Shown: piece after piece, positions 24,040-40,680 of the stretch
How the letters are laid out: each line of letters opens with the position of its first letter
Numbering within the stretch: position 1 is the first letter of the stretch
NCBI GenBank assembly: GCA_930367215.1
Contig: OV884060.1
Location: 212,911,253 to 212,975,252 of the forward strand
Reading direction: 5' to 3'
Length of the DNA stretch: 64,000 nucleotides
DNA from: Pollenia angustigena
Lineage: Eukaryota; Arthropoda; Insecta; Diptera; Polleniidae
Made by a program: the position numbers and the translations under genes
The notes under the pieces: generated by a model
The model's database searches: none
Told to the model about the DNA's origin: nothing
Seen by the model: only the letters and a program-made list of their open reading frames with translations

Positions 24040-24473
24040 GTTAAATCGCAATAAGTCCATTGTTAAGCGTGCTGTGTGGCATGTGGTACCGTCTTGTTGA
24101 AAGCACATGTCATGCAAGTCAAGCTCTTGCATTTTGGGCAAAAAAAAAATTTGGATATCATCTCACGGTAGCGCTCACCACTCACAGTTACGTTACGATT
24201 CGCATCATCTTTGAAGTACGGTCCAACGATGCCACCAGCCCACAAACCGCACCAAACTGTGACTTTTTCTGGATGCATTGGTAGCTCTTGCAATGCTTCT
24301 GGCTGATCTTCACTCCAAAATCGACCATTCTGCTTATTAACGTACCCATTGAGCCAAAAATGAGCTTCGTCGCTGAACACAAGAAGCGCGCGATGAACTT
24401 TCTTAACAGAGCACGCATTTTGATAATAAAATTCAATAATTTGCAAGCGTTGTTCGTTTGTAAGACGATTCAT
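24040..24473 (-). pseudogene. mariner transposase, N-terminus and catalytic core, deleted
   Basis: Starts MNRLTNEQRLQIIEFYYQN (helix-turn-helix region). Right after VHRALL it jumps to FSDEAHFWLNGYVNKQN, the block with the first catalytic Asp. About 120 residues of DNA-binding and linker sequence are therefore missing. VTVWCGLWAGGIVGPYF and GERYREMIS follow; then the frame shifts, and in another frame CFQQDGTTCHTAR gives the second catalytic Asp. The third acidic residue is lost at the LINE insertion. Cannot make active enzyme. Confidence 0.85.
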
Positions 24474-24587
24474 GGTTAAATTATAGACCAAACTGAAGAT
24501 GTTTGACAGTGAAACAAAACACGAAACGTGCGTCAGCTGTTTAAACCGGTGTTGCCAAAAAGATAATAGCTAAAAAATCACCCGATA

Positions 24588-27824: not shown

Positions 27825-28562
27825 ATATATATATAAAACTAATTCAGTTTGCATAAAATTCCACGAATAATGTGTGTAAAATAAGTGAAATTTTTTTGCA
27901 AAATTATTGTTGTAGGTCACTGCACTGCCTAATATGTTTAATTTGTCTAACATTTGAACTTTGAGTGTAAACATTTTAAGGGGGTTTCAATTCCAACTTA
28001 TGTGCACTTTTTGATTACATTTTAACTTTTTATTAAGAAAAAAGAAACATGAAAAAAATTATGTCTTTCACATTCAGTCAGTTAGACAGACCGACTTACA
28101 AGTCGCAATCTAAATAGAATACAATTATTTATGCCATGTAATTATTACTTTAGAGCACGAACGAACTTCATTTGAGTAGTTTTTATAAAACTTGGAAACA
28201 TTAAAAATAAGGAAAAAAATCGTTTGCGCATGCGTTGTTATTATTTGTCATGACATAATTAAATATTTTTCGCGTTCTTGACTTCCATATGAGTTTAATA
28301 TAGGAATTATAACTGAAACGCATGTTTGTATAATTTTACAAATATATTATTATTATATTATAATTTTAATATATATTAAAAAAACTAACATCAACATTTT
28401 TTGTACTCTAATAACCTTAAAATAAGATTTAGATTAAAATGTTTATGCTCGACATGACCTTTTTTTTAATTTAAATTTAAATATTTTTTTTCAATTGCTT
28501 TAATTCTAGTTACGAGTTTATGGCATTTATGTAACTCCAGACACACAAACATATTTTTAACA

Positions 28563-31500
28563 ATGGCTCAACGTAACTATAAAACTTATTTTATTTCAAC
28601 AATATTTATTGTATTACTGCATTTAACAATATGGCTGCCACAAAGCGCAACTTTACCACAAGGTGCACCGGAAACTATATGTGACACAATGTTGCCATTT
28701 CATGGTGGCGGCATTTTGCCATCGAATGCTGTGCCACCGTTTCGAATAGAAACGTCAACGGCAACAATAGGTCAGGGACAAACTCTGCGTGTTGATATTA
28801 CTGGTGTACCAAGTGGCTTAACATTTGGCGGTTTTATGATACAAGCACGCAACAATAACCCACCGTATCAAATTGTAAGAAATTTATTTTTGTAATTATT
28901 AAGTAATTTATTTTTTTAAATAAAATATAAATTATATTTATTTTTTTTAAGATCGGCCAATTTAATCCCTCCGAAGATGGTCTTTCCAAATTAATGAATT
29001 GTGAAAATTCTGTAAGGAATTCCGTAACACATACCAGTACAGTGCCCAAACCCGAAATAAGTCTAGAATGGCAATCGCCAGTAGATTTTGAGGGTGAAAT
29101 TGTTTTTAAGTAAGTGTTTTTAAACAGTTTCATGCACTTGTTGGACTTGTGTAAAATATCACTTTTTCCAGCATACAAATGTTTAACTTGCACATATGCA
29201 ACAGCTTTCTGTGTTTCTTATTTAACTTTTAAGAAAAAAAGCTGCCCTGTACACGACTAAATCTGCTCATTTTCGATTCTAATTTCGAATTTACTTTCTT
29301 TTTTCCTACAGTTCGACAATAGCTCAAGCTTATGATACCTTTTGGGTTGGCTTACCTTCCTCTCCAGTGCGTGTAGTTAAACGTGAAATAGCGCCACAGG
29401 GCCCAACAACACCCAGACCTTCCTTTGCACCCAATACTCGTACCCCTTATGTGCCAGAATATGTACCTCCTCCACCAGCTCCAGTAGCAAATGATCCTTT
29501 TTATGATGAATGTGGTACTAGTAAAAATTGTTTTGGCAATAAAGACGGCTGTATTGATTCGAAATCCTGCGATTTTGTATCAGCTGTTAAAGTGAGAGGT
29601 GGAATTTATGAATTTGAACTTAAATCAAAAGCAGGTAAAAAAAGAAAAAAAAATCATATATAAATAACAGTCACCACACTGGGTTCCATTTAGCTTGAAA
29701 GATGGCCAAAAAGTTTGCAATAAATTCCGAAATATAGGTATAAATTATAAATAAAAATATATATGTATAAAAAATGTTAAATTGTCAATCAAATTAAACA
29801 GAATGGAATGTGTGATAGCCCTGATTAAAAATTTTTAAAACTAATATTTCCATTACATCTTTCAGAAAATGCTGCTTATGTTGCGTTAGGTCTTTCCGAA
29901 GACAACCGGATGGGTGATGATTTAGTTATAGAATGTGTACCTCAAAATGGTCAAGTATCCATGTATAGTTCCTTGACTTCGGGAGTAGCTGCTGGTTATG
30001 GAGTTAGTCGTTTGGGAGTGGTAGGGCTTATTGGGAGATTATTTATTTTGTTTTTAAGTTAATTCTTTTCGTTTTCTTTTTAGCCCCAAAATACTGCCCG
30101 TTTGGTAGAGGGTTCAGTTGTAAATGGTGTTATTTACTGTAAAGTAGAACGTGATCCTGTTACAAAAGTGGGCAATCGTGTTTTCGACTTAGGAAATAAT
30201 AAATATTATTTACTTCTTGCGGCCGGTTCCGGTTTGAAAGGTGAGCTTTATTTTATAAATGCCAACTTCCAATACTAACTGTTGAAACAACTATAGGACC
30301 TGCAAGAGAGGGTTTATTAAAAATGTGTCACTTAGTTCCCCACATAGTTTCAGTTTTTGTACTAGTTAGATTATATTTGACAGAAACAAGTTTATTTGGT
30401 ATCGAAAATAGACCACTCCATGACCAGATTAATTAATGTTCAATGCAAAAATAACTTGTTCAATCATAATTGAGCCGTTTATTTTGAAAGTGGCATAAGT
30501 CATTTCGGTTTTTAAGTCGAGATATTTAAGGGTTTGCGTTTTAACACGTTTAAAAATATGGATGCTAACTTTCGAGAAGATTCACTTGTATTTGATACAT
30601 CATGATAATGATATTTTTCTCAGTATTATTATTATTTATTATTATTTATTATTAACTCGATTTTTTTTGAAAAAGTGACTAATGCCACTTTCAAAATAAA
30701 CGGCTCAATTAAAGACGATAGATAAGATCAGGGACTAATTTGTTTCTTTTGACCCTTATTGTGGTTTGCGTAGGCGTATTTAGACTTAAAGATGTATGTA
30801 TATATGTATATCGTCATAATAAATGCAAACGGACGTAACTACACAAAATTTCGAAATTGAGTTTTTATTAGAGTTGTCAATTATTCGCCTTTCAACTTTA
30901 TTCGAATAATTCAAATAATTGTTTTTGTTCGTTCGATCAAACGGTTAAATCTAAAATATTATTCGATTAATCGATGAGAATAACGATTAAAATTTTTTTT
31001 TTTCAAATAAATTTCTATGGAAAATCTTGCATTCCATCCGCTATGACTTCTTCTTTCTTTGATGCATAAATTTTTTTATCTTAATTTCATATCGTGGTAT
31101 TACTTAAAGGCATCGTAAAACCCTTAATTCCTTAATAATCCGATATTACTCTGGATTTTCGAAAGGCGTTGGCAGACCTACCATCTTCAGCCAAACTTTT
31201 GTCTACAATTTCTTCTATAGAACAGCCGCTGTCGTTTTATCAAAATACATGTTCGTGCAAAATTTTAGATTCCTACGATCAAAAATGGAGATTTTATTAA
31301 CGAAATTCAAACGCCAATTGCACCTTGTTGTTATTGATTTTGTAAAGTTTTTTGGTTCTTCTGTAAAAAAATAAAAAGTGTAGTTACGTCCGTTTGCATT
31401 TAATATGATGATATGTAACCCCGATACCATTCTTCAAAAACACCTTACTTTCGCCACAAAAACGCCAACCACGACAAGATTGAATAAAATATATATATTT

Positions 31501-34500
31501 TTTATCGGTTTCACTCCTGGGTGTTTTTAAGCCCGATAAAACTAACGAAAGCGTAAGCCGCCAAAAAACAATCATACTACGCTCGCTTTTTGACATTATT
31601 GATCCCTATACTCTGGCAACATAGTATGCATAGACTTGCGCTTGAACAATACTACAAAATTATCAAAATTAACTTTAAAAATCTGTCAGCGATTAGTGCA
31701 ACTTATAGAAGACTTCGTGATTTTTATTGTGTTCAGCGATAAAGTTAATTTTGGCTATCGAGTTTTTGCGTTATTTTTCCTACTTTTAAGTTCTATCGGT
31801 TTAAAAAAATTAACCTCTAAGTATTCTTTAGGGGATATTTGGGAGCTCAGATCTGAAGAGAACCAAGTTAAAAACAAATCAACTTCAAGAACCATTGACT
31901 TGGGTTTAGTTATTACCGTTACCTTAGGAACGAAACACTTTTTGATTTAGTCCGTCACAGAACTGGATAGAGTTAAGCTTTGCGGAGAATTTTGCATCAG
32001 TTTTGAAATACATATATGCATGTATGTATTTAATTTGTTGACTTGGTTCGATTCAGCTCTGAGCCCTCCATTTAACCCTGGGAGGCTACTTTCTATTGCG
32101 ATGCGAAAGAAAATGGTAGCAAATCTAGCGTTTGGTACTCTTTAATGCGTTTGCGCATTTGTCTTTTGCATCTATTAATTTTTTTCTTTTCGCAAATCAT
32201 CACTATTTGCTTTATTTAAATTTTCTAATTTGAAATATTTTTACATATTTAAGCATTTCATTATTGTCAATCTGCGCCATCTTTCATTTTTATTGCCAGT
32301 ATTGCTTCATTTTCAAAAAATTTTGCGAAAGTGATAGAGAGTACCAAGTTGGCATTTAGCTTTCGCATCGCAATAGAGAGTAGCCCCCCTGGATCGTTAC
32401 TGTTCGTCGATTCGACGAGGCTCATTTACTCTTTTGATCGGTATTGATTTATGGCAAACTAAATAAATCTTTGGTTGTACAAATAAAATAGTAAGTACAA
32501 AAGTTTCAAGACAGGGCATTTCGAAGACCTTAAGTTAAAGTGAGGTTAAAATAGGCAACATGTTTTTCATCAACATATTCACAAAAGAATTAAAAATTGT
32601 TTCCACAGTTATATTTGTTGTACAAACGAACACGAAATAGTAGAACATGTAACATTAATGCAAAATATTTTTCAGAAAAGAAATTGCCGTTATTTATGTG
32701 TATTCAAATTACGATATTTTTCAGCAGCGTTAGCTGATGACGAAAGTTTTAAAAAGTTAATTAATTTAAAAACACAAAAAATTGAACTCATTTTTCGTAT
32801 TGAATTTTAATAAAATGCTTACATAGCAAATTTTTGTTGATTTTTAGCTATAAAAATGGTTTCGCTAAATTTTTTTTACTAGTTCGTCGATTCCACGAAA
32901 AGTCTCCTTAACAAAGAGTCCTCTTCCAGGGTTAAACATAATTTGGTGTAAGCCCCTATAGTATCAAACCTTTAGTTTTAAAGAGGATAGTCTTTTTTTT
33001 TGTTTTAACAACTAGTTTTTTGGCTAACTATTCCAGTTGTAGAGCCAGGGTATAACACCTTCGTAAAGAAAGGCGAAAAGCTTACAGAATCTGCTCCCAA
33101 GTGCATTGGTCCCCACCAGTATAACGTCTGAGTTTTTCAATAGTACTCTACCAGTCACTCTGAGTCTTTTCTTAGGTTGTACACCGGATAAAACACGTTA
33201 AAATTTTTAGGTTATAAACGATTGGTTAATGCTGAAACAGCAAAAACCGTAACAGTTAAGCGACGCCAATACGCATGAAAAGCAAACAAACAAATAAACA
33301 CGGCATGTTTGTCTTTAAAAGAGCAGTTTTACGAATAAAAGGCGCTAGTCCCAAACGTCAGTTGCAAAGCAACTCGCTTTTTAAATGCATTCTACAATGA
33401 AACTAAGCAACATTTTTTGTTATTTGTCCCAAAGTGCACCAAATTAATTATCGATGCGTACACAATAAGCAAACTGTGCTTCGTTAAACTTTATGATTCA
33501 TTTTTTTACTTTGACTGCAAAGTATTATAATGTTTTGGAACTCAGCCTATGTATTCTTTTTTCAATAGTAATCTGTCGTAATTTTACCCAGTCCCTTTAC
33601 ACATGCTTCAAAAAAGCCTCGATAAAGCAATTTGTTTCTTTTTTTTTTAAATCATTTGTAACTTATTTTTTAAAAAAAGGCAGACTCTAATTTATTTAAA
33701 GTAAGAATAAAGTTAAAATAAACTTTTGATGAACTCATATAAATATGGATTTTGTTAAATCCTATCGTACCCTATTCTCAGAAAATGGAGTTGGTTACCA
33801 TAATATTGGTCGCTTGCCTTCCGATAAGGCCATTAATTTAGCTGAATTACAAGATTTGGGAGCTGCTTCTACTTTGCTACTTCGATTGCATGGTAGTTTT
33901 ATGATTGCCGCCTGGATTGGAACCACATCGTTGGGTATTATTTTTGCACGCTACTTCAAGCAAACTTGGGTGGGCAGTCAAACGTGTGGCAAGGATCAAT
34001 GGTTTGCTGTAAGTTTCAAAACAAAACCTGCTTAACTACAATTTAGATTATTTCATTTTAAAAACATCTTTTATCAATTACAGTGGCATCGGATTTGCAT
34101 GGTGACTACCTGGTCTCTGACAATAGCTGCTTTTATTATTATTTTTGTGGAAATTGATGGCTGGTCTGGTGAACGTAATCCTCATGCTATTTTGGGTACT
34201 ATTACTACAGTTTTGTGCTTTATACAACCGATTGGTGCTTTATTCAGACCTGCCCCAAATTCCAAAAATCGTCCATTTTTTAATTGGGCCCATTGGTTGG
34301 GTGGAAATTTGGCTCATTTGTTGGCAAGTAAGTTGATAGTTTAACCCCCGTTTTCACAACTTAACAATAGCTGAAGGTCGGATTTAATCGGCCGTATAAA
34401 AAGTGATCCAATATTACAACTAAACTTTAACCTACAAGGAAGGATGAACCTTCCTTATCGCTCACTTAAGGTTAAAATTAAGTTGTACCAAGGGAACACT

Positions 34501-37500
34501 TTTTATACGGCCGATCAAATCCTACCTGTAGCAATCAGTAAGTTTTAAAAACGGGCCTAAAATAAATAATTTTTCAATTAAACATTTTAATTTAATTATT
34601 TTTATATTATTAGTTGTAACCATATTCTTTTCGGTAAAATTGGCAAAAGCTCAACTACCGGAATGGATGGATTGGATTTTAGTGGCCTATGTGGCCTTCC
34701 ATGTGATTGTACATTTAATATACTCAGTAAGTAAAATGAAATTTTAACATCTAAAATATATTTTCCAGAGGAAAACTAATTACAAAAACAAATATACGGT
34801 CTTATAATAAATCATTATAAAATGGCAGATTTCACAATCATTCGTGAACTGTAAGCAGAAGCTTTATAATCAAAGACTTTTTGTTAAAATAAAATAATTG
34901 GGAGCCCGCGGGATCCATATCTTACCGAAAACTGTTCCCGTACTCAAATTTTGGTAAATTGAGAGAGCTTTTAAGAGAAAAATATTCTTCTTCTTCTCGC
35001 ACGAAGTAGCCCGTACTTTTTCTTTGGGCTGATTTGGAAAATTGTTAAACAATAATCTGTGACAAAAAATAAACAATAAAAACTACAAACAAGTATTACC
35101 AAAAGAAATAAAATTCAAAATATTAATAAAATAAACAAAAGAAAATGTTAAAAAATTTAGGTACATGTTTTAATTTTACTTTTGTAAATCATTTATGTAT
35201 TTTTTTGAACGTTTTCATTGCAACGTTTGCTTTTGGGGTAAAAATTTGGTTTTTATTGTTTCCGTACTTTTGTACATTTTTGTCTATTAGTGAGAAAAAT
35301 TCTTGTTTACTCTCATTTTACCGAACTTTACCCAAAAAGTAAGGGATCGCACCTATTGTTTATGTAAAAGGTTTTTCTCTTTCTTATCGTCTTGCTTGAA
35401 ACTTTTAGGAACATTTTGTAAAATATATTTTTTAAATTTCTTTTTTAAACGTTTTACACAACGTTTTCGCATGAGTTTCTCTAAAATTTTTGTTATTTAA
35501 CAAACAATTATTTCCCAAATTTAGCGCTAACTCATGTTCCTTTTTAAGTTTTCCCCTTGTATATAAAATTGACGTAGTGGCGAGAATTCGATAAACGATA
35601 AAATAAAAGATAATTGTAAATATTTTATAAAGAACAAAAAAAGTAAATAAATTTTACATAAAATCATTAGTTACTAATTTCCCCTTTCACTGTTCTATTT
35701 CCGAGAACTCTAGGGTACCAACCATTAATATAGATTTTCTTGTGTATACAGATAACAGGCTGTGCCTCGGATAAACAACACTCGAAACGTGTTAATGATT
35801 TCCAAATGGGCAATATGGGTCATCATCATGGTATGCGCAATAACATGAAGTTGGAACGTAAAATGGATGCACCGGTAAGTATGATTTTGAAAATATTTTC
35901 CATTACCAAAATCAGCGGAATGTGGGATAGGACTGTTAATTCTTAATTTTTTATTTTTATTTGAAATAACAACGAATACAGATTAAAGTAATGTAGAAGA
36001 TATTGCTTAATATGGAACAATCAGATTTTTTTTTTTAAGTTTGTATTTATGACCTTTTTCTATTTCTATTTCAATTAAAATTTTTTTTTTTTTTTTGGAA
36101 GATGCGGTATGATAATCAAAATAAATATTAAAATTGAAGGAAATTATATTTCAGAAAAAAATCTTCTTGATGTGTTGCCATCATTAGTGCTAACGTATCC
36201 TGGTTTTGGAACATCTACAAGTATTCCTATCTCGTCTTTAAGTCTTTTTTGGATGAATATCTTCCTCTCTTTAACAATTGCTTTATCTTCATCGCTCCTT
36301 GCTTGCCACTTTTTAATTGGCAGTTTATATGAGAGATGAAGTATCGATTCTAAAAAGCGTATGCGTGCATGTAAAGTTGATAGTCCAAAACTCAAGGCAT
36401 CACAGTTCAGACGAACATTCTTCTGCAACGTGTTAAAATCTTTCGAAGTTTGACCGCAAATGTAACACCTCATAGTCGATTTTGTGTCCGTTGCAGCATT
36501 GCATACTTTTCCATCGACCATTGTCATTACCATCGTGTGTTTAATTTGTGCAATTTTTCCACTACACGGTACTTCGCTTTTCTTTAAAAATTCAATTTGA
36601 TTATTTATGTGTCCTATTTCTTGCTTCGTGATGTCAGTTGTTTCCTGCACAAAATGGATGCGGATTGGTATACATAGCCTAGTTGAGGATGGTGTTTGAT
36701 TTCGCCATATCGTTTTAATTTTTCCATTAGTATTTGTGATTAGTTTAATTGGTACACAACTGCTTTGGAATATATTAGCGTCACTAACATCTTCGTTTTC
36801 GAATTTCTGCTTATAACATGATTGGTGCGATCCGTCACAGCCCCATTTGGTTATATAAATTTAGCTCTTCATAGTCTAACTGCTGCAAAACCTCTTCAAG
36901 GTATATACATAAACGTGTTGCTGTATGGTCGAGGAGAGCTTGGAGCTTCACTTCCGCTAATGTTTCAGTAACGGTTATGGCATCTTCATTGGGATAACAA
37001 TTTTTTTTTGCATTTTTTAGTAACGAGTAACATGGATACACATTTTTATTGGCATTGTATAAAATTTCATATTGCTTTTTCGTGAGCTCTGCATTTACAA
37101 AGAGTGCTAAAGCTCCTTCCGCTGAAAGTTTATTCACAGGGTTGACTTCAGAAGTTGTTAATGATCGCTTGCAAATTCTTGCTTTTCTTGGGGATCTCGT
37201 TATATCCATTATTAATTTAGCCGCATCATTATGTCCCGCTGCTCTTTGACTCATGGATGCAGCAAATGTGATCTCCTCTGTTGTTAATTGGTGACGAACT
37301 TCTTCAGTTTTTCTCCGCTTTGTTCTATCACTAGCTTCATTAAATTCTTTTCGTGGTCGCCCTGAAGACGAACTGCCAAATACTGGTATTGTTACAGTTC
37401 CTTCCAGCCATTTAGCGTTTGTGCTTAAAAAGCGGTCCTCTTTTCGTTGTGCCGAAAGCCAATGTCTTTTGAAACAATTTTTGAAATTTTTCAAACACTG

Positions 37501-40500
37501 CTTCAGTGCTAATATGTCCCCATTCCCTTGACATTTTGAAATTTCGATAAATTTTCTGACCAAAAAATCCAATTTCTCGTCCATGGTTCCAGCATTAGAT
37601 TTTTTCACTATTTGGAATAGCTGTAATCTTGTTCCATGTTGACTCTCGAAGTTACAAAACGGTTTTGATAAAAAATGGGTGCAATAACCCTTTATAAGTA
37701 TTTTCAAGCGCATGCTTTTATGCCTTAATTGAATGGTAGCCTGATACCTGGGTGCCCATGTATTTTTTATGTACCTATATTTATTTTTTGTAAACTTTTT
37801 TTTGTTTTTTAGAGCAGTGGCCGTATTCTGTAATTCGCTAACAGTGCAGCCACACGATCAAGATTTTCTTGATAGTCTTTTACATATACTGATTGTCAAA
37901 ATATGCAAAAGTTGTCAGCTGTGACGTAGGCTGCACGCAAGTTGAAAGCAATTTACTTTTTCAAGATGTCGTCGCCGAGAAAACAACTCAAAATGTTTTG
38001 CTATTTTCCACTTTTGATTTTTCTGCACTGTAGGCTGTTCGAAGGGACTTTATTTTTTTCTTTACTTCTTCCACTGGCATTTTTGTTTCAGAAGCTAAAG
38101 ACTCGTAGGCTTTTATTTTTAAATCATTTCGCCTATATGATGAAAGATTCATAAAATTTCATGGCTTCTGTACAGCTCTATGAATCGCAGAACATCATTT
38201 TGCTTATTAATTTTATAAATAAATTTTATTAATAAACATATTTCACTATTTTTTTAGGTTTTTAGTTAAAATTTTAAAAATCCCGCAACAATTTGTAAAA
38301 AAAAAGAACTTCAGCTTTTGCCGGCAAAATATTTGTGAAAAAAAAACAAAAACAACTTCAAAAGATTTGTAATAAGATGTTTTCTTGAACGAAAATTGAT
38401 ACACTCACTGGCAAGAGAATTTTAGAGGCAAGTTCGTATCAATTTTTAAAAGTATGAGTGTATTGGTAAAAAAGTGTGAGTGTATTAAAAATTGATAGGC
38501 AAAACTTGATCGTGTAACCCTCAAGTAAAGCTAAATCTCTATCGCTAAAAATCTTTAAAGTTGATTTAGCGATTTTTGACTACGAATGCAGTACTGTAAC
38601 GTGCATTTCTAAATTTGGCAATGTCATAACAATTTAATTCACCGCAATTTTAGCTTTTATTGTCATCACTAGAAGTTTTTAACTTAGTACTCTCTAAGGC
38701 ATTTTAGCGATAGAGATTTAGCTTTAGCTAAGCGAATTACGGAATACGGGTGCAGGTATATAAAAATATCTTTTATGGGGATGTGTGGGACATTCCCTTA
38801 AAACTATTTTGGATAATTAAAAATTTTTGCAATTTATAAATACATATAGGCAGGTATTAATATTGTGAAGTGTTAAAAGTGATTTGAATAACAGTTGAAA
38901 TCAATAAACATAAAAGTTTATGACGATATAAAGGTATAGGAAAAAGTGCCCGATCAGCAAAAATAGAAGAAATGTGAAAATTTAAAAAAATCGTCAAAAA
39001 TAATGGCGCAAACTTGAGCCCACTTTTTTTTTGGATTCTAAAATTAGAGATTCCAAATTTTATGGTGGTATCAAACATAATTCGTAGACATGCTAACCTC
39101 ACCTTTAAAAACCTCTTCTTTTCCTTTTTTTTTGCAAAAAAAAAGTGTATAATTTGTTTTTTTTTAGCTTTGAACGAATTGTTTCAACATGAATATTCAA
39201 CATATTTTAAATTTTTTTTGCTGTTTTAAATAACTTTTGATCAAACCTTTCAGCGAAAAAAAAATCTTTGTTAAACCTTTATTCGTTTAGCCGCAAAAAA
39301 TATCATATAAACATCCAGAAACCGAAAAAAAAAACATTTAAATCTCATATAATTTTCTTCACTTTCCTGACTTTAGCAGGGTCTCAGAGCTACAAATCGC
39401 AACTAAAAGTCTTCAAAATTTACAATATAATGTAAAATATTGTTGTCTGTCGAGCTGCGTACTTAGTTCTTAAGATTTCTTAAAATTCAGTTTTGCCTTT
39501 TTGGCCAGCTTTTCAGGCCAAATACTCGTCTGTGCAGCAGTTAAATTTGTTTAAACGCTTTATAAGTTTCAAAGTGCTTTTCAGAACGCTGCTTTATATG
39601 GAACCTGTCTGTGGCCCGATCTTTTCGAAATTTTACAGTGTGATTTCTAGCATTAATCTTACTACAACAGCGTTATTCGTTACGGTTTAAGGCGTACTTA
39701 AGGCTAGATAGCACTATTATACTTTGTATTAATACATGTCAAAATCTCATGTAATATGACAAAGCGTGATAGTGTGAATGCAATGTGTCACGAATATGCC
39801 AAGTATTATGAAAATAGTTTGACATCCCATACAACTTCATCGTTTTTTGAAAAATTTCTAAACAATAATACTTTTCATTGGATCAGGGTTGCATTTTTTT
39901 TCATGTGTGAGTGTTTATACTTTGTGTGATGGTGTGAACACAAACTGTCATGCTACATTAGATTTTTTGACAGTCGCAACAAAACTCATTAGATTTCTAT
40001 CTCACAAAGTATTATGGAATACGTAAGACTTGTGAGATAGTGTAATCTAGGCTTTAGCTGTTTTCCAAAAGTAAGCTTTATATGGGGCCTATACTAAATA
40101 ATGGGACGATCTTCACGAAATTTAGTACTACGATTGATTTTAAGACATATAGAACGAATTTGTGCAATATTTTATATCAGTCCAAGTTTTTATTGCACCA
40201 ATATTTATGTTAGACAAAAAAATAAAATTGTTATGGTGGAGGTTCAACATTTGGATTTATAACTATTATCCTGCTAAAATAATTTTGCTAGATTTCAATA
40301 CCAAACTGCTTGGGATAACTAGAAGGTATTTGACACAAATACTGTGCTTTTTTTTTTGAGTTGTTCAAAATCGAGCTATAATTTTATTTGAATCGAAATA
40401 CATGGTAACCCCCAATGAAACGTTTTTATACAGTTACTAACCTTTTTTTTTGTATTATTTCTTTTTTACTTTCTTGATATTTTTTTCCTTTTATTTCATT

Positions 40501-40680
40501 TTCATTTTCATATAACATATACTTTTCTTTTTATCTCTTTTTCAGTTTGCTGGTTTCCGCAAAGGTTTATTGGCTGTTTACACTGTGGTCTTGATATTAT
40601 TCGTGGTGGCTTTAATAGTAATAGTGGCTTTAGCGCCAATTGAGGATACCTTTAAAAAATTAAAATCAAAATTAAATTAA
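28563..40680 (+). CDS. CG8399: Reeler-DOMON-cytochrome b561 protein, ferric-chelate reductase 1 homologue
   Basis: Ten exons: 28563-28874, 28952-29109, 29312-29634, 29866-30020, 30084-30240, 33782-34008, 34084-34327, 34614-34726, 35752-35874, 40546-40680. All introns are GT-AG with matching phases; 648 residues, about the length of Drosophila CG8399. Residues 1-29 look like a signal peptide. Next come a Reeler domain (about 30-185), a Pro-rich linker (TPRPSFAP, YVPPPPAPV), a Cys-rich DOMON domain (about 225-365; CGTSKNCFGNKDGC) and cytochrome b561 helices (about 385-565). The usual His ligands are visible in LRLHGSF, WHRICM, NPHAILG and NLAHLLA, and a last membrane helix is in exon 10. The family moves electrons across membranes through two haems to reduce ferric chelates; the substrate here is unknown. 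The symbol is by orthology to Drosophila. Confidence 0.93.
30468..30710. mobile_element. Foldback MITE in reductase intron 5
   Basis: ATTGAGCCGTTTATTTTGAA and TTCAAAATAAACGGCTCAAT are perfect inverse copies, continuing through AGTGGCATAAGTCA and TGACTAATGCCACT. 243 bp, non-coding. Confidence 0.85.
30821..31401. mobile_element. Inverted-repeat element in reductase intron 5
   Basis: AAATGCAAACGGACGTAACT then ACAC, mirrored by GTGTAGTTACGTCCGTTTGC then ATTT: a perfect 24-bp repeat bounding 581 bp. No transposase frame. Confidence 0.85.
31402..32070. other. Intronic sequence without identified elements
   Basis: Part of reductase intron 5 (30241-33781). A plus-strand open frame (31636-31950) has no recognisable domain, and I do not call it a gene. 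Confidence 0.4.
32071..32936. mobile_element. Inverted-repeat element enclosing a MITE
   Basis: Termini TTTAACCCTGG and CCAGGGTTAAA. Inner partial arms share GTTCGTCGATTCGACGA and GTTCGTCGATTCCACGA in direct orientation. It encloses the 32081-32388 element near its left end. Confidence 0.55.
32081..32388. mobile_element. MITE with CTG duplication
   Basis: Left GGAGGCTACTTTCTATTGCG and right CGCAATAGAGAGTAGCCCCC are inverse copies with two mismatches, flanked by CTG (32078-32080 and 32389-32391). CWG 3-bp duplications are known for animal PIF/Harbinger. The copy at 11069 is interrupted by a pogo-like element. Confidence 0.75.
32937..33781. other. Intronic sequence before exon 6
   Basis: End of reductase intron 5. 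The acceptor CCTATTCTCAG at 33771-33781 restores the reading frame from exon 5 (split Glu codon). No other feature identified. Confidence 0.45.
34345..34557. mobile_element. Foldback MITE close to the exon 7 splice donor
   Basis: CCCCCGTTTTC and AAAACGGGCC termini enclose the near-perfect inner arms CGGCCGTATAAAAAGTG and CACTTTTTATACGGCCG. TAA flanks both sides (34342-34344 and 34558-34560). It starts only 18 bp after the end of exon 7 (34327) and ends 57 bp before exon 8, so it fills most of intron 7. Confidence 0.8.
34727..35751. other. Reductase intron 8, no element identified
   Basis: AT-rich. Several short open frames have no domain content. Acceptor TGTATACAG ends at 35751. Confidence 0.45.
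36144..37713 (-). pseudogene. RAG1-like (Transib-related) DDE transposase remnant, frameshifted and truncated
   Basis: Antisense in reductase intron 9. Frame one (37713-36835, 292 codons) has a basic GRPRKEFNEASDRTKRRK segment and Cys/Leu-rich helices. A shift of one base near 36846-36849 leads into the second frame, open from about 36848 to 36144 (GTG at 36650 is not a start). That frame holds KWGCDGS (candidate first catalytic Asp, codon 36834-36836), IFQSSCVPIKL, PSSTRLCIPI, a Cys-x2-Cys CYICG, FGLSTLHARIRFLE, KKWQARSDED and NDGNTSRRFF, then stops. The order of blocks parallels the RAG1 core: CDG, Cys-Pro segment, CxxC, helix, KRWQA-like, GN-x-ARK/RR. The region expected to hold the last catalytic Glu is missing. 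No terminal repeats found. An old fossil copy; relation to RAG1/Transib is my inference from motif order. Confidence 0.6.
37815..38755. mobile_element. Inverted-repeat element next to the RAG1-like remnant
   Basis: GGCCGTATTCTGTAATTCGC near the left and GCGAATTACGGAATACGG near the right are inverse copies. Inner motifs TAAATCTCTATCGCTAAAA and TTTTAGCGATAGAGATTTA also pair (about 38530 and 38702). The open frame 37942-38154 inside is not recognisable. Confidence 0.65.
38756..39479. other. Intronic AT-rich sequence
   Basis: Part of reductase intron 9 (35875-40545). No features identified. Confidence 0.4.
39480..40400. repeat. Family A dispersed repeat, interrupted copy
   Basis: Shares GGCCCGATCTTTTCGAAATT, CAGCGTTATTCGTTACGG, AGCTGTTTTCCAAAAGTAAG, TATATGGGGCCTA and the end block TAGATTTCAATACCAAACTG with the copy at 17762-19012. 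A MITE (39701-40053) splits it exactly inside the GTACTAAGCTG motif. Confidence 0.65.
39701..40053. mobile_element. PIF/Harbinger-like MITE, TTA target
   Basis: AGGCTAGATAGCACTAT and ATAGTGTAATCTAGGCT-type ends (inverse, a few mismatches) are flanked by TTA (39698-39700 and 40054-40056). The unoccupied site is visible in family A at 18.4-18.5 kb, which supports the boundaries. Confidence 0.7.

Follow-up and report, generated by a model that had tools for sequence, protein, structure and literature searches.

Introduction

In the origin of V(D)J recombination, Transibs stand on the transposon side, their transposase being a relative of the enzyme that rearranges our antibody genes. In HzTransib, from Helicoverpa zea, the catalytic triad consists of D126, D225 and E436 (PMC6941560), and 5-bp target duplications are typical of Transibs generally (PMC7204232). 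Transib1 of Drosophila melanogaster, 3,030 bp in length, is a young Transib that spread in this fly, in an invasion placed in 2013-2016 (PMC12230796). According to Kapitonov and Koonin, an animal genome typically carries a single autonomous Transib copy, or a few at most (PMC4411706). Here we describe a transposase-bearing region of the fly Pollenia angustigena, located in a stretch of 64,000 nucleotides of contig OV884060.1 (assembly GCA_930367215.1, positions 212,911,253 to 212,975,252), hereafter the window. This region is almost certainly what remains of a cut-and-paste DNA transposon, truncated and non-coding, that belongs to the Transib superfamily and within it to a family that we refer to as A; a sister family in the same genome is referred to as B.

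A truncated Transib copy

The recognizable transposase lies in two overlapping minus-strand frames, 36835-37857 and 36144-36860 from stop to stop, which are offset by one base. An earlier note on the window had reported these two frames, their one-base shift and a series of motifs, all of which are present. The interval it gave, 36144..37713, does contain the frames, but is too short for the element, which extends from 39534 to 36154 and includes a foreign insert of 934 bp. The limits of the element were obtained by blastn against other genomic copies, which align with it in the same order to either side of the insert.

36154..39534, minus strand: copy of Transib family A that lacks its 3' end and carries a nested insert, with about 2.44 kb of Transib sequence remaining
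39499..39534, minus strand: 5' terminal inverted repeat, which matches the opposite end of complete copies over 37 nt
36838..37641, minus strand: transposase frame 1 (P0001), with an N-terminal helical domain, a nonamer-binding-domain (NBD)-like domain, and then a part aligning with RAG1 from residue 459 onward
36147..36860, minus strand: transposase frame 2 (P0002), an RNase-H-like region that retains two residues of the catalytic triad; its transposase homology stops at about 36154
36838..36865, minus strand: change from frame 1 to frame 2; the related protein P0003 aligns in the first frame with its residues 6-261 and in the second with 268-501

In frame 1 the transposase homology starts at about 37632, and the AlphaFold2 model of P0001 has a mean predicted local distance difference test score (pLDDT) of 93.3 and a predicted template modeling score (pTM) of 0.51. 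The second frame alone (238 residues) matches the solved HzTransib chain 6pqn_A with E=6.8e-52 over residues 1-236, while the first frame alone does so with E=4.6e-08 over residues 171-245; chance is thus ruled out for both frames. P0003, the closest among the relatives listed, gives by tblastn 73% identity over its residues 268-501 and 62% over 6-261. Moreover, a profile built from intact relatives also finds RAG1L and the RAG1 of vertebrates. That is, the transposase is homologous to HzTransib and the RAG1 core, in agreement with the RAG1/Transib-type identity proposed earlier; the wide spread proposed for the family likewise agrees with the relatives found across insects.

The 5' terminal inverted repeat of the window copy opens with CACAGACGAG (a CACAGAC... 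end), most other copies reading CACAGAGGAG. Ends that start with CAC and resemble the heptamer of a recombination signal sequence are found in family A (CACAGAGGAG), in family B (CACATAGGGG) and at the one end left in the window. By analogy with HzTransib and RAG, an intact transposase would bind such repeats as a dimer, nick the DNA at each end and form hairpins on the flanking DNA, after which the element would be pasted into 5-bp targets. The 5' end in the window is flanked by TGCTG; the matching flank is gone along with the 3' end. The match ends at 36154, and five complete copies run 1280-1926 bases further to their 3' ends, so that the 3' side of the window copy is shorter than theirs by at least about 1.3 kb.

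Catalytic residues and the NBD-like region

36834..36836, minus strand: codon of the first catalytic Asp (in WGCDG), equivalent to HzTransib D126 and RAG1 D600; intact
36513..36515, minus strand: codon of the second catalytic Asp (in MVDGKVC), equivalent to HzTransib D225 and RAG1 D708; intact
36456..36467, minus strand: CYIC (CxxC), aligning with a Cys-containing YIC stretch of RAG1
37195..37365, minus strand: RAG1-type NBD-like region, beginning with the AT-hook-like SGRPRK

Mapped from HzTransib numbering by counting along the alignment, the triad corresponds to D274, D381 and E589 of P0003, all of which are invariant in the alignment of relatives (A1). The two Asp belong to WGCDG and MVDGKVC, respectively, and the Glu is the final one in EEAAEARNK. 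In the RAG1 alignment, the Asp of RGTGYDEKLV, which we take to be D708, falls on the same Asp as MVDGK. The suggestion that CDALSFG occupies the position of the second catalytic Asp is thus not upheld, since the alignments to both HzTransib and RAG1 place this residue in MVDGKVC. Nor is GNxxRR the catalytic core motif it had been taken for: GNTSRRFF sits N-terminal to the Glu region, and the Glu motif itself is located in the C-terminal quarter of the transposase, which truncation has removed from the window copy. The family, then, has the complete DDE set, whereas the window copy keeps both Asp and has lost the Glu. Without its 3' end and this Glu, the window copy should neither move nor yield an active enzyme. 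The CYIC motif and its YIC counterpart in RAG1 presumably have a role in zinc binding.

The NBD-like region conforms to the RAG1-type domain, in which three helices come after a GRP AT-hook and DNA is contacted by R391, R393 and R402; the GRP is present in 113 of the 115 relatives scored. This region, the common core fold and a RAG1L match of 6.5e-12 would also fit a RAGL transposon, that is, a ProtoRAG-type element with RAG1L and RAG2L, instead of a Transib. No Pfam domain corresponding to the N-terminal zinc-binding non-core region of RAG1 was found in P0003, P0014, P0120 or the rows of A1, and about 95 residues precede the GRP in this family, compared with some 388 in RAG1. We regard a RAGL element as extremely unlikely.

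Number, age and flanks of family A

The genome searched comprises 1.37 Gb in 31 contigs. At least 42 rows, the window itself counted, match a 1570-base query with 93-100% identity (837 first-look candidates, 40 scored). Among 18 chosen family A loci, the mean pairwise difference is 1.90% (1.27-2.62%; 153 pairs), and substitutions private to the window copy occur at 13 of 1650 sites, or 0.79%. The 36-base family A end, allowing up to 2 mismatches, is found 686 times in forward and 666 times in reverse orientation, i.e. 1352 times in the genome, and the reversed control for this search gave 0 matches. These ends, along with the low private divergence, point to a recent burst of family A. Among the first places listed, some ends oppose each other at distances of 0.7-2 kb, suggesting that copies with internal deletions exist.

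These data bear on two other explanations. The window copy is unable to move, as would be expected of an old, inert fossil remote from recent activity of the family in this genome; however, both the private divergence and the number of ends count against this explanation, which is very improbable. The term fossil used in the earlier note thus does not hold in the sense of age: what broke the copy was the loss of its 3' end, an insertion and a frame change. The two long open stretches that remain could instead be viewed as a Transib-derived gene domesticated by the host, as happened with RAG1. Against domestication stand the frame change, the loss of the C-terminal quarter with its catalytic Glu, the nested insert, the antisense position in an intron, and the existence of many copies that diverge by the pairwise mean given above; we give it practically no credence.

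Eight family A loci were taken with wide flanks, and both ends were read in five. GC-rich 5-bp target duplications are exact in two of these copies (CGTCG/CGTCG and CATCG/CATCG), agree at four of five bases in another two (CGACG/CGACT and AGACG/CGACG), and lack a match in the last. The imperfect or absent flanks of these three copies weigh against the assignment to Transib, as do three further points. With its 3' end missing, the window copy cannot show a target duplication of its own; a Pfam search with just the two window frames did not retrieve RAG1; and the Pfam RAG1 model was matched (E<=0.1) by just 8 of the 20 rows of A1, in which one protein is present twice. With these points counted, the assignment of the window copy to Transib family A is almost certain.

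The nested insert

37818..38751, no strand assigned: 934-bp element within the Transib copy, with inverted ends TGGCCGTATTCTGTAATTCGCT / ACCCGTATTCCGTAATTCGCT
37991..38122, minus strand: fragment of a MADF domain within the insert (Pfam MADF_DNA_bdg, E=1e-07, 32.6 bits vs a cut-off of 22; coordinates counted by hand)

The insert is bordered by a GCAG duplication, at 37814-37817 and 38752-38755, and the insertion site is empty in all six of the other copies compared. A marker for the site was found in 30 locus rows, with some loci counted twice; the window copy is the filled one, 27 rows are empty and the remaining two contain different sequence. In family A loci L022 and L033, other sequence lies immediately after the same GCAG site, so that more than one insertion or break may have occurred there. 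Within the insert, an inverted repeat at 38526-38726 has 35-nt arms, 89% complementary and separated by 131 nt, resembling a miniature inverted-repeat transposable element. A 224-base piece of the insert is also found, at 86% identity, in locus L028.

Sister family B and its N-terminal domain

A genome search with P0003 gave 67 rows (12067 first-look candidates, 66 scored), from which the counts are lower bounds: at least 25 rows belong to family A and at least 41, with 52-53% identity, to family B, and one row is short. Of the 41 family B loci listed, 40 are stop-free, most with an open frame of 683 codons. The five loci that were read (L034-L038) are about 3.6-3.9 kb each and carry CACATAGGGGTTTTTTGCCAATCTAGCCGGACATTA at both ends in inverted orientation. 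All five have exact, GC-rich 5-bp duplications (CGACA, AGTCG, TGACG, CTCCG and CTTCG), and their open reading frames differ pairwise by 0.15-0.29% (10 pairs). Judging from these stop-free, nearly identical copies and exact target duplications, family B is likely the live Transib of this genome. Its burst may be very recent and perhaps continuing, with copies still moving. Over 78% of the query, the 529-residue protein P0123 shares 95% identity with family B, which might reflect close kinship or horizontal transfer.

In all five loci read, GRPRK is replaced by KRLQK, while the DDE residues are kept. Compared with the window copy, family B is 60% identical in the first 90 residues, but the NBD-like region and the one after it are 35% and 47% identical, respectively; compared with P0082, it is 73-81% identical from residue 170 on, and 24% in the N-terminus. 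The trees (76 rows for the N-terminus, 77 for the core) differ accordingly. For residues 4-88, family B and P0009 group with the window copy (support 0.81; 0.98 with P0003). For residues 170-500, family B joins P0009 (0.999), then P0105 and P0082 (0.53 and 0.92), whereas the window copy joins P0003 (0.999). That is, the N-terminal domain of family B and P0009 (residues 1-90) groups with the window family, and their core with another lineage. The simplest reading of this conflict is that the N-terminal domain was exchanged between lineages before family B and P0009 split. We suggest, tentatively, that family B could be a live Transib in which the GRP AT-hook is dispensable for mobility and whose transposase acquired the N-terminal domain of another Transib lineage by a swap. 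Were this the case, RAG-type transposases would carry an exchangeable module at their N-terminus, and this would bear on the later acquisition of nonamer recognition by RAG1.

Host gene and neighboring sequence

28470-28892, plus strand: Reeler domain (Pfam, above cut-off)
29829-30059, plus strand: DOMON domain (Pfam, below cut-off)
34036-34341, plus strand: b561 domain (Pfam, below cut-off)
35875..40545, plus strand: host intron of the Reeler-DOMON-cytochrome b561 gene, to which the Transib copy is antisense

The location previously proposed, an intron of a ferric-reductase-like gene, is correct, this gene being the Reeler-DOMON-b561 gene. The intron has its donor GT at 35875 and its acceptor AG before 40546; the last exon was assigned by inspection. 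Elsewhere in the window, an open frame at 24063-24569 on the minus strand matches the helix-turn-helix model DUF4817 (26.7 bits vs a cut-off of 22.6) and resembles, by eye, a broken Tc1/mariner-type transposon.

Comparison with known systems

The closest solved system is HzTransib (PDB 6pqn and related entries), with which the core of P0003 (residues 171-653) is 41% identical over 470 residues and shares the DDE triad. The aligned part of HzTransib starts at its residue 21, too close to the N-terminus to be preceded by the helical domain and NBD-like region seen here. With the RAG1 core and ProtoRAG RAG1L, the family shares an NBD-like region followed by the core, with the two Asp, the CxxC and the Glu motif in the same order; it differs from them in that structural alignments give 14-19% identity and in the zinc region discussed above. 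Insect proteins whose names begin with 'V(D)J recombination-activating protein' or read 'uncharacterized protein' belong to the same transposase family; among them, P0131 of Ceutorhynchus assimilis is 60% and P0144 of Popillia japonica 53% identical to family B. The likeness to Transib1 of Drosophila melanogaster, drawn by description, is that of a young Transib spreading in a fly.

This kind of element is already known, and Transib invasions of flies are documented; the part of specialist interest is family B. In contrast to the one or few autonomous copies described as typical of animal genomes, a single insect genome here contains one Transib in at least 40 stop-free copies and another that is represented by 1352 ends. 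Families A and B thus provide natural material on which to ask which parts of a RAG1-like transposase are required.
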